Below are positions 31,505-38,662 of a DNA stretch of 64,000 bases, in pieces. The stretch is from the NCBI RefSeq assembly GCF_014200505.1, contig NZ_JACHBX010000004.1:1-64000 (forward strand), in the 5' to 3' direction. This DNA comes from Massilia aurea (GTDB taxonomy: Bacteria; Pseudomonadota; Gammaproteobacteria; Burkholderiales; Burkholderiaceae_D). Within the stretch, counting starts at the first letter, position 1; every line of letters begins with the position of its first letter. The notes beneath the pieces were generated by a model, which worked only from the letters and a program-made list of their open reading frames with translations, ran no database searches and was not told the DNA's origin. A program made the translations under genes and the position numbers.

Positions 31505-32527
31505 ATGGAATTTTTCAAGATCAAACGGGACATCCCGTTCATGCGCCACGCGCTGGTCCTCAATGCGATCTCGGTGATCACATTCGTGGCGGCGGTGTTC
31601 TTCCTGATCACCAAGCCCCTGAACTTCTCGGTGGAGTTCACGGGCGGCACGGTGATGGAGCTGCTGTATCCAAAGGCGGCGGACCAGGAAAAGATCCGCA
31701 ACACGCTGCGCGGCATGGGCTATTCGCACCCTGAGGTGGCCAGCTTCGGCACCGCGCAGGACATCATGCTGCGTCTGCCGATCGTCGCAGGCGCGCCGGC
31801 GGCGAGCAGCTCGACGGCCGTGTTCAACGCGATTTGCCGCGACGATCAGGGCACGACCAAGCAGACGCAAACGACGACCGACAAGGGTGAAGTGCTCAAC
31901 CGCACCAGCTGCGTCGCCCCCGGCGGGCAAGAGCTGATCAGCCTGCAGCAAGTGCAGTTCGTCGGTCCGTCGGTGGGCGACGAACTGGCGCAGAACGGCC
32001 TGAATGCGCTGCTGATGGTCATCCTGGGCATCGTGGTCTACCTGGCGATCCGCTTCGAATGGAAATTCGCTGTCGCCGCCGTGGTCGCCAACCTGCACGA
32101 TGTGGTCATCATCCTGGGCTTCTTCGCGTTCTTCCAGTGGGAATTCTCGCTGACGGTGCTGGCGGCAACGCTGGCGGTGCTGGGCTACTCGGTCAACGAG
32201 TCGGTCGTCATCTTCGACCGGATCCGCGAGATGTTCCGCAAGCAGCGCCGCATGAGCGTGCCGGAAGTGATCGATCACGCGATCACCAGCACGATCTCGC
32301 GCACGATCATCACGCACGGCTCGACACTGATGATGGTCATGTCGATGCTGTTCTTCGGCGGCTACGCGCTGCACTACTTCGCGATCGCCCTGGCCATCGG
32401 TATCTGCTTCGGTATCTACTCGTCGGTGTTCGTGGCCGCGGCTGTGGCAATGTGGCTGGGCGTCAAGCGTGAAGACCTGATCAAGCCGGTCAAAGAGAAA
32501 GACGACACCGACGGCGCCGTCGTCTGA
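31505..32527 (+). CDS. secF: Protein translocase subunit SecF
   Basis: 340 residues with six predicted membrane helices. The family blocks NFSVEFTGGTVMEL, QFVGPSVGDELAQNG, LHDVVIILGFFAFF and GYSVNESVVIFDRIREMFRK are intact, and STISRTIITHGSTLMMV marks the late helices. It is longer than many SecF proteins because of an extra segment in the periplasmic loop (residues ~95-135, with PAASSSTAVFNAICRDDQGT and CVAPGGQEL). Two cysteines in this insert could form a disulfide. Transcription ends at the terminator at 32634, whose T-tract was hit by an insertion sequence. Confidence 0.95.
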   Translation: MEFFKIKRDIPFMRHALVLNAISVITFVAAVFFLITKPLNFSVEFTGGTVMELLYPKAADQEKIRNTLRGMGYSHPEVASFGTAQDIMLRLPIVAGAPAASSSTAVFNAICRDDQGTTKQTQTTTDKGEVLNRTSCVAPGGQELISLQQVQFVGPSVGDELAQNGLNALLMVILGIVVYLAIRFEWKFAVAAVVANLHDVVIILGFFAFFQWEFSLTVLAATLAVLGYSVNESVVIFDRIREMFRKQRRMSVPEVIDHAITSTISRTIITHGSTLMMVMSMLFFGGYALHYFAIALAIGICFGIYSSVFVAAAVAMWLGVKREDLIKPVKEKDDTDGAVV

Positions 32528-32597: not shown

Positions 32598-32631
32598 CTG
32601 TCTCTTTCAGGACATCCCTAGTTTTGGACTT
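32598..32631 (+). repeat. 34-bp exact repeat, copy 1 (upstream of secF terminator)
   Basis: The sequence starts CTGTCTCTTTCAGG and ends CTAGTTTTGGACTT. An identical 34-bp copy is at 38597-38630. In both places it ends 2-3 bases before an intrinsic terminator hairpin. Sequences outside the 34 bp differ. Confidence 0.9.
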
Positions 32632-32633
32632 CA

Positions 32634-32664
32634 CCCGCCCCGGCAACGGCGCGGGTTTTTTTTT
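32634..32664 (+). terminator. secDF terminator, T-tract occupied by IS insertion
   Basis: CCCGC and CCG pair with CGG and GCGGG around a GCAA tetraloop with one C-C mismatch, followed by nine T. The last eight T form the left target-site duplicate of the IS1595-family element, so the terminator is still complete after the insertion. Confidence 0.88.
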
Positions 32665-33732
32665 GGCTCAGTCAGCGTTATCTGTTGATGACCCTGATAG
32701 CGATGCTAAGCAATTGTTCTGGCGACGTAACCCGCTCACCATCCAGCGCCCAGAGCCAGCCCAAGTAATTGGGCAGGTAGCGCGACGCCACCCCACGAAA
32801 GCCCTGTAACCAGGACTTGAAACGCTGGTGATAGGCATTCACGTTCTGCACATGAATGGCCAGGTTGCCTAGCCGCCTCGCACGCATCCCGGCGCGCAAG
32901 TTGACCTTATGGTGCGCGATCCTGTGCTTGCGTGCAAAGGCGCGGTAGGCAGCGTGGCTGTCACTGACCAGCAACGCCTGCCGATGGAGGTTGGGCAGCA
33001 AGTCGCGTTCGAGTTGCGCAGCCGTGAGCGCACCCCGGCCAGTGACGGCATCGATCGTGCGTCCCTCGCGGTCGCGCGCGACCAGAATGCAGTCCAGTTC
33101 ACTGGAAATGCCCCGTTTGGCAGCGCGGCCGCCGTGACGGCGCGGTGGCCGATCAAGCGTGCGCGAACCTTTTTGTGATTCGAGCAGAAATGTTTCGTCA
33201 GCTTCGACGATGCCGTTAAGCGCGGCGGGTCGGTCGAGTTTGACCCACTGCAGGAAGCGGTGGCGCCAACGAAAGGCCGTATTGCGGTGTACACCGACCC
33301 GATCTGCTGCCTTGCGGACGGGGAGTGAATCGAGCAGCACTTGCGAATACGCGAGCCATTTGCCTTTGAGCCTGAGTCGCGCCAGTGGCGTACCGGTCAG
33401 GTCGTTAAAGGTGCGGCCGCAGGCACAGCAGCGGTAGCGCTGCAAGTCGTTGGCGAAACCGTGCCGGTAGCAACACTCGTTGCCGCATCTGGGGCAGCAG
33501 CGGCCGGCCGCTCTGACCTCAGTGATGAGCGCAACCACCTGATCGAGTCCGGCTGCAGGATGCAGGGCATCGAGCACTTGCCGGCGCTGCGGCTGATTCA
33601 GTGAAGGCAGTTTTGCGAACCAGCCCTTGAAACGTGGCGCTTTCATGATGGACTCCTGACGCTGGGACAAGGGTCAGACCATTGAAGTGCTCTTCAGTTC
33701 AAAACTAGTCTCTATTTAACGTTGACTGCGCC
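32665..33732. mobile_element. IS1595-family insertion sequence with inverted repeats and 8-bp target duplication
   Basis: The element is 1068 bp. The left end reads GGCTCAGTCAGCGTTA and the right end, on the opposite strand, GGCGCAGTCAACGTTA: 14 of 16 positions match. It is flanked by TTTTTTTT on the left (32657-32664) and TTTTTTTT on the right (33733-33740), an 8-bp duplication as expected for the IS1595 family. One complete transposase gene is inside. The intact ends and gene suggest a fairly recent insertion. Confidence 0.85.
32678..33646 (-). CDS. IS1595-family transposase
   Basis: The ATG at 33646 has AGGAG eight bases upstream and gives 322 residues. A zinc ribbon (CPRCGNECCYRHG and YRCCACGRTFNDLTGTPLARLRLK) is followed by a helix-turn-helix (VRKAADRVGVHRNTAFRWRHRF) and an ISXO2-type catalytic core. 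That core has acidic residues in IVEADETFLLES and LVSDSHAAY and the late block NVNAYHQRFKSWLQGFRGVA. No frameshift or stop is seen, so the enzyme may be active. The gene fills the element and reads toward secF. Confidence 0.92.
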   Translation of the reverse strand: MKAPRFKGWFAKLPSLNQPQRRQVLDALHPAAGLDQVVALITEVRAAGRCCPRCGNECCYRHGFANDLQRYRCCACGRTFNDLTGTPLARLRLKGKWLAYSQVLLDSLPVRKAADRVGVHRNTAFRWRHRFLQWVKLDRPAALNGIVEADETFLLESQKGSRTLDRPPRRHGGRAAKRGISSELDCILVARDREGRTIDAVTGRGALTAAQLERDLLPNLHRQALLVSDSHAAYRAFARKHRIAHHKVNLRAGMRARRLGNLAIHVQNVNAYHQRFKSWLQGFRGVASRYLPNYLGWLWALDGERVTSPEQLLSIAIRVINR

Positions 33733-33749
33733 TTTTTTTTGCCCTGTCG

Positions 33750-34643
33750 CTAAGCGTGGTCGGCTGCAAATTGCTGCTGCAAAAAGGCAATGAACAAGCG
33801 CACCCGCTGCGGCGCCTGGCGTCCGTAGGCATGCAGCGCGTGTACCTCCAGCCCTGGCATCGGCAAGTGCGGCAGCACAATGTCGAGGCGGCCGGCGGCC
33901 AGATCGTCGGCCACCGCAATCCTGGCCAGCTGGGCGATACCGGCGCCTGCCAGCGCAGCCTGGCGCAGCACCACGCCATCGTTGGTGTCGAATGGACCGT
34001 CCGGCACCAGGCTGCTGCCGTCGGCCCAGGTCCAGGGGAAGGGGCCGGCCGGCGTCAGGTAGCGCAGGCAGGCGTGATCGGCCAGATCGGCCCGTTCTGC
34101 TGGTTGCCCGCACCGCGCCAGGTAAGCCGGCGCGGCGACGAGCACCGGCTGCAGCGTCGTCAACCGGCGCGCCGTCAGGCGGTTGTCCAGCAGGGCGCCA
34201 ACGCGGATCGCCACGTCATACCCTTCGCGGATCAGGTCGACCTGGCGGTCGGCAATCCCTAGTTCGAGCTTGAGCCGGGGGTGCGCGAGCGCGAACCGTT
34301 CGGCCCAGCCGGAAAACACGGTGCGGCCCAGGTCACTTGGCGCCGCCACGCGCAGCAGGCCGCTCACATCGGCCGGCGTGCGCAGCGCCTGTTCGGCATC
34401 GGCCAGCGCCTGGATCAGCGGCGCCACCCGCTCGAAATACAGCGCGCCTTCGGCCGTCAGTGCCAGCGTGCGTGTCGAGCGCTGGATCAGCCGCACACCG
34501 AGCCGCGCTTCCAGCCGCGCCACGCTTTTCGATACCGCCGAGGGACTCGCGCCCAGCAGGCGCGCAGCATCGCTGAACGACCCGGCCTCGATCGTGCGGA
34601 CAAATGCGGCCAGGCCGGCAGAGGTATCGACAATCGCAGTCAT
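33750..34643 (-). CDS. LysR-family transcriptional regulator
   Basis: 297 residues. The N-terminal winged helix has FVRTIEAGSFSDAARLLGASPSAVSKSVARLEARLGVRLIQRSTRTLALT, the LysR DNA-binding signature, and the remainder is the periplasmic-binding-protein-like sensor domain of the CrgA/DhcR-like subgroup. It is divergent from the MDR oxidoreductase gene, with a ~100-bp shared promoter region, so it probably regulates that gene. The inducer is unknown. The IS1595 element ends 17 bp after its stop codon. Confidence 0.9.
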   Translation of the reverse strand: MTAIVDTSAGLAAFVRTIEAGSFSDAARLLGASPSAVSKSVARLEARLGVRLIQRSTRTLALTAEGALYFERVAPLIQALADAEQALRTPADVSGLLRVAAPSDLGRTVFSGWAERFALAHPRLKLELGIADRQVDLIREGYDVAIRVGALLDNRLTARRLTTLQPVLVAAPAYLARCGQPAERADLADHACLRYLTPAGPFPWTWADGSSLVPDGPFDTNDGVVLRQAALAGAGIAQLARIAVADDLAAGRLDIVLPHLPMPGLEVHALHAYGRQAPQRVRLFIAFLQQQFAADHA

Positions 34644-38596: not shown

Positions 38597-38630
38597 CTGT
38601 CTCTTTCAGGACATCCCTAGTTTTGGACTT
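38597..38630 (+). repeat. 34-bp exact repeat, copy 2 (upstream of an orphan terminator)
   Basis: Identical over 34 bp to 32598-32631. It is again followed at once by a terminator-type hairpin (38633-38662), though the hairpin sequences differ. No plus-strand gene lies upstream here: the SDR gene upstream is on the other strand. Confidence 0.9.
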
Positions 38631-38632
38631 TG

Positions 38633-38662
38633 GCCCGCTCCTCACCGAGCGGGCATTTTTTT
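38633..38662 (+). terminator. Terminator-type hairpin after the second 34-bp repeat
   Basis: A perfect GCCCGCTC/GAGCGGGC 8-bp stem, 6-base loop, then A and seven T on the plus strand. On the minus strand the tail has no T-tract, so it is not a good terminator for the HDOD gene that ends at 38665. It may instead block plus-strand (antisense) transcription into that gene. Confidence 0.78.

Follow-up and report, generated by a model that had tools for sequence, protein, structure and literature searches.

Eukaryotic retroelements are known to target safe havens, and so is Tn7, which inserts downstream of glmS and leaves the gene working. Group IIC introns are linked to transcription terminators, and the subgroups of the IS1595 insertion sequence family are told apart by their catalytic signature. 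Tn7 resembles the element examined here in that insertion occurs just after a gene that stays functional, but it reaches one site via a dedicated protein, whereas here many unrelated terminators are occupied by an element with one transposase gene. Group IIC introns are likewise mobile elements that take a stem-loop as target and insert after it (PMC10190682, in the available text of which the word "terminator" is absent), but they are ribozyme retroelements without target duplication, in contrast to the one-gene DNA element and 8-bp U-tract duplication found here. Insertion sequences that target REP sequences also use extragenic palindromes (from the part of PMC1525189 available), though these are repeated palindromes and not, as here, a hairpin plus T-run at unrelated terminators. 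ISApl4, of the IS1016 group, shares with our element the IS1595 family, 8-bp duplications, A/T-rich targets and many copies per genome, but its targets mix A and T and, by our count from Table 1, 16 of its 35 listed sites are intragenic (PMC12561309, again without the word "terminator" in the text available). IS1595 copies have been described as over-represented between co-directional genes (PMC9208149, available in part). The family is thus known; no report of a terminator-targeting insertion sequence stands among the literature matches listed, which is weak evidence that the behaviour is unreported, as coverage was partial and ISfinder lay outside it.

The insertions that we describe belong to one clade of the IS1595 family, carried by Massilia and its close relatives. 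This clade very probably prefers the U-tracts of intrinsic terminators, directly 3' of the stem, for insertion. A one-gene insertion sequence using intrinsic terminators would be a compact, testable case of safe-haven targeting, and it might serve as a tool for setting DNA behind genes while leaving them intact. The locus that led to this result lies in a window of 64,000 nt from Massilia aurea, the whole stretch of DNA analysed, and its features are as follows.

31505..32527, plus strand: upstream gene, presumably secF (ORF list; name from the earlier note)
32599..32664, plus strand: small RNA resembling Rfam RF02278, probable owner of the terminator (Rfam score, recurrence, folding)
32633..32656, plus strand: predicted terminator hairpin ACCCGCCCCGGCAACGGCGCGGGT, -16.2 kcal/mol (folding-based caller allowing internal mismatches)
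32656..32664, plus strand: T9 tract left of the element (sequence; empty site)
32665..33732, minus strand: IS1595-family element, 1068 bp (sequence; 21 full-length genome copies; a relative's empty site)
32678..33646, minus strand: transposase ORF, 322 aa from ATG (ORF list, profile searches)
33733..33740, plus strand: T8, second copy of the target duplication (sequence; empty site)
33750..34643, minus strand: LysR-type regulator gene, convergent (ORF list; family by inspection)
38598..38662, plus strand: second copy of the small RNA, its terminator unoccupied (RF02278, 44.7 bits, model 1-64)

On the plus strand the order is hairpin CCCGCCCCGGCAACGGCGCGGG, T9, the 1068-bp element, T8 and GCCCTG. 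The element reads GGCTCAG...GCGCC, with the inward ends GGCTCAGTCAGCGTTA / GGCGCAGTCAACGTTA and terminal inverted repeats of the GGCKCWGTC type on both sides. It carries one gene, on the minus strand, for an IS1595-type transposase that would be 330 aa long from an alternative TTG start at 33670. The protein is laid out as a zinc-binding N-terminus, an HTH and an IS1595-type catalytic domain; it scores 167.2 bits against the IS1595 transposase model NF033547 (cut-off 75), 40.2 bits against PF12762 (cut-off 27) and, for the N-terminal IS1/IS1595 zinc-binding domain, 38.2 bits against NF050000 (cut-off 28). Residues D150, D229 and N268/N270 are invariant in the transposase alignment (A1). The search for a solved-structure relative returned four chains at E 0.18-0.71, none convincing. 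By these matches the element is assigned to the known IS1595 family, and the earlier note's description of such an element in a T-tract beside a hairpin is confirmed by sequence, profile matches and an empty site.

The empty site, sought in close relatives as the earlier note had proposed, was found in G008, which keeps hairpin-T9-GCCCTG without the element. A T9 tract has therefore become T9, element and T8 by an exact 8-bp duplication, of which the last eight T of the T9 (32657-32664) are one copy. The note's eight T on each side holds for the duplication but not for the left tract, which has nine; that the tract was copied and the hairpin kept a full T-run is evident from G008 set against the window. 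G039 and G038 have hairpin-T8 without the element at the same site. At a second insertion (L005) the terminator is uninterrupted in all three of these relatives; at a third (L010) it is uninterrupted in G008, and G038 and G039 show an uninterrupted A-tract adjoining a more divergent hairpin. Since the terminator is in place where the element is missing at these three sites (L001, L005, L010), the element arrived at an existing hairpin and tract and duplicated 8 bp.

The earlier note had called the hairpin the secF terminator. Hairpin and T-tract are real, but what ends there is most likely a conserved small RNA encoded between secF and the LysR gene, which makes any link to secDF an indirect one. 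The 66 nt that precede the element align over the full model (1-64) with RF02278, a toxic small RNA of Betaproteobacteria; the scores at 32599-32664 (35.7 bits) and 38598-38662 (44.7 bits) lie below the gathering score of 50 bits, as do those of nine loci in relatives (33.2-48.1 bits). The stretch recurs at 83-97% identity in many genomes of the genus, often in several copies and mostly within about 10 kb of secF. Most of the loci retrieved contain one to three core motifs, and the stretch folds better than its shuffles (z -3.0, 2 of 200 as good). G005 carries a further copy of this RNA roughly 3 kb from secF, and its terminator is occupied by an element (L085). RF02278-like RNAs are known in Bordetella (S17) and Burkholderia (PMC11722255) and in Herbaspirillum (PMC7011215), as far as these sources were available. 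A simple pattern scan of the window did not list the hairpin among plus-strand terminators and found no promoter-like site.

The terminator had also been credited with shielding the element from read-through. This is possible on one side, but the LysR gene is transcribed toward the element from the right, in the direction of the transposase gene, with its stop codon 9 bases from the T8; the shielding is therefore one-sided at most. Among 49 terminator copies (shared sites unmerged), the transposase gene has the same direction as the terminated transcript in 27 and the opposite direction in 22, and shielding is thus no constant feature.

A genus search found matches to the element in 48 of 62 genomes. 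The 5.39-Mb genome of the window holds 21 full-length copies (79-100% identity) and two short fragments, and 10 to 21 full-length copies are present in each of four related genomes. Our sample comprised 85 full-length copies from ten Massilia-group genomes: a near set of 54 in G000, G008, G038 and G039, and a distant set of 31 in G005, G033, G040, G041, G045 and G050, with elements at 67-72% identity to that of the window (L082, at a contig edge, was dropped from the distant set). Merging 15 rows with a shared site or tandem array gave 70 events; merging preceded the element tree, and L006/L066 and L003/L026 each count once though they are not sisters. An event was placed at a terminator when, on the rebuilt empty site, the duplicated octamer overlapped a U-tract preceded by a hairpin of -10 kcal/mol or better; a U-tract needed at least five T in eight bases and three in the first four.

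As the earlier note had suggested, terminator T-tracts turned out to be preferred landing sites. Inspection of the flanks of all copies placed 14 of the 21 copies in the window's own genome and 44 of the 70 merged events at terminators (near set 23/41, distant set 21/29; unmerged copies 28/54 and 21/31), compared with 6.2% of 2500 sampled intergenic windows and 2.6% of 20,000 random windows; G000 alone supplied this background, its genes were called crudely by the G+C of codon positions, and terminators are predicted throughout. The same 44 events also pass a stricter -14 kcal/mol, at which the intergenic figure is 3.0%. An 8-bp duplication with no more than two mismatches, which we call clean, is present in 59 of the 70 events; with the other 11 left out, 37 of the 59 are at terminators. 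Taken as a class, 44/70 merged events have a terminator-type stem directly before the insertion point.

A plain preference for A/T-tracts could give a similar picture in a GC-rich genome, where long T-tracts often are terminators. Indeed, 50 of the 59 clean duplications have at least six A/T, ISApl4 is reported to make A/T-rich 8-bp repeats (PMC12561309), and two tract targets (L004, L088) have no strong hairpin. But the targets here are single-letter runs, whereas ISApl4 mixes A and T and, by the count from its Table 1 given above, often sits within genes, and a tract-matched control speaks against tract preference alone: of the 35 clean duplications that contain six or more T, or six or more A, all but L004 and L088 lie next to a hairpin of -14 kcal/mol or stronger (33 of 35), as against 23.9% of 732 tract-bearing intergenic windows (36.2% at -10; p about 1e-18), and with at least 7 T or A, 23 of 25 do so versus 38.2% of 173 windows (p 3e-8), the p values being indicative only as the background windows overlap each other. 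We regard this explanation as highly improbable.

It could also be that the element inserts widely and that only harmless insertions, such as those in U-tracts after genes, remain. Every insertion in the data set is a resident copy and none is a fresh one, so selection may contribute, and 50 of the 62 events outside genes (32 + 18 out of 32 + 8 + 18 + 4) are nearest to a gene 3' end, against 49.6% of intergenic positions. Harmless downstream DNA is, however, far wider than 8 bp, yet in 35 of 40 clean terminator copies (rows unmerged) the duplication begins 0-2 nt past the last G/C of the stem, and intergenic windows as a whole give only the 6.2% cited above. From this position survivorship alone was judged unlikely, and we give it little credence.

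The preference of the clade for terminator U-tracts would be exerted at insertion, beyond any survival of harmless copies. In these insertions the 8 bp that are duplicated are the U-tract itself, with one copy remaining at the hairpin and the form of the terminator kept. The resulting low cost to the host may let the element family persist; the targeting looks like a built-in way to spread with little host harm, and it would help explain the high copy number of the four genomes. The cue could be the terminating transcription complex, whose rU-dA hybrid is about as long as the 8-bp duplication, or hairpin-forming DNA beside the T-tract.

The 26 events away from called terminators bear on the choice between these cues; 18 of them are nearest to a gene 3' end, four are nearest to a 5' end and four lie inside called genes. 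Twelve fall within 15 nt of a called stop codon, as against 6.7% of intergenic windows, a comparison made inexact by the fact that some of the 12 overlap the stop codon and the background windows do not; two of the 12 (L008, L065) have no clear duplication. An excess of flush hairpins was absent from these targets: 8 of 21 clean events have one at -10 or better, against 34.2% of 888 intergenic and 38.6% of 900 stop-proximal windows. That the transposase recognises a hairpin or cruciform beside the T-tract independently of transcription is a variant of the preferred explanation and does not exclude it. The strong hairpin that almost always adjoins a tract target and the DNA stem-loop recognised by group IIC introns (PMC10190682, in the part available) make this recognition plausible, but the lack of a hairpin excess at the other targets, and their gathering at stop codons, weigh against it; we consider it a serious possibility, if short of probable. 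We lean slightly to the transcription complex over DNA structure as the cue, since the remaining insertions cluster at stop codons rather than at hairpins. The clustering at stop codons hints, and only hints, at the end of transcription or translation as the signal.

A more specific form of this reading, which we offer tentatively and hold to be rather doubtful as a whole, is termination-coupled transposition: a transcription complex that is terminating, or paused and released, would lead the integration complex, which would cut both strands at the borders of the rU-dA hybrid, and intact copies would persist under selection at terminators that are fixed from species to species. The stop-codon insertions would then arise in this way too, at ends that lack an intrinsic terminator. 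If true, a one-gene bacterial transposon reads "end of gene" as an address.

The gathering at stop codons among the non-terminator events, of which L013, L021 and L079 are examples, perhaps represents a second insertion mode. Copy L008, without a clear duplication, is adjoined on its right by a very short end-to-end remnant of the element's two ends (250-bp region, G000 C1 near 250970).

Terminators are used again in different genomes. Flank comparison, the element tree and orientation together show that the sub-lineage found at one terminator can differ from species to species: L017 and L054 share a terminator, as do L012/L059, L067 and the tandem pair L083/L092 (L067, adjoining the L012/L059 terminator, is called at -8.5 only). 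The same terminator behaviour is seen in sub-lineages that are 67-94% alike. L006 and L066 have site, duplication and orientation in common and are not sisters in the tree, L003 and L026 likewise are not sisters, and L063 and L130 share one flank only. Some of these apparent re-hits may be replacements by recombination, because orientation is the same at every shared site with both copies called. In two tandem pairs (G033:C1:2913255-2915400 and G041:C1:2425018-2427163) the elements are separated by 8 bp, which fits repeat insertion into the duplicated tract; a circular dimer could also give them.

The resident copies are well preserved, with an ORF of at least 300 aa in 80 of 85. Pairs from the same genome show dS 0.18-0.83 and dN/dS 0.07-0.21. 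For shared sites at which the element is about as similar as its flanks, dN/dS is 0.16-0.20 (L015/L071, L012/L059), 0.08-0.10 in the L016 group (L016/L068/L070/L078) and 0.28-0.41, from few changes, in the L018 group (L018/L076/L077/L126), with no gap over the element at these sites. The element tree places L019, which sits at a different site, within the L018 group. Idle copies should drift toward a dN/dS of 1, and the low values at shared sites would not be expected of insertion sequences that lie idle; the copies either serve the host or are renewed where they stand. Two other transposase families in the four genomes gave 14 matches, six with in-frame stops, and other IS families were dropped as a target control as too few and too broken in these genomes.

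A wider set of 33 loci, many of which repeat the ten genomes, was examined without deriving a rate; L192, L193, L209, L215, L216, L224 and L225 are without credible ends and L229 has none. Apparently outside the ten genomes, elements are at terminators in M. brevitalea (3 of 3 copies with both flanks), M. timonae (1 of 1) and M. sp. YIM B02443 (1 of 2), and M. yuzhufengensis (56% amino-acid identity) has one copy with ends at a terminator and another without credible ends; the caller also accepts one copy in M. niastensis, but its T-tract is poor. No strong terminator was called for M. sp. MS-15 (L188), Dechloromonas (L220, 48%) or, with unclear duplications, M. alkalitolerans (L212), Desulfobulbaceae (L213) and Janthinobacterium (L214). 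A phylum-wide search gave 30 loci, 22 without ends and 8 with fits, two of which looked spurious (L248 and L255, the latter being our own copy L008). Terminator targeting as a property of IS1595 at large was rejected, as six distant elements with credible ends (L236, L238, L241, L242, L257, L260) are not at strong terminators.

Short or decayed derivatives were found at eight loci, four of which (L133-L136 of G041) are at terminators and one (L139) is not; L137, L138 and L023, with uncertain ends, were left uncalled. L133 (G041:C1, about 235 bp) is a MITE-like derivative with both ends, at a terminator. In Massilia aurea, L224 (39% identity) represents a second, distant IS1595-type transposase lineage, and just upstream of it lies a T8 tract followed by an element-like end (AGGCTCTGTCACC).
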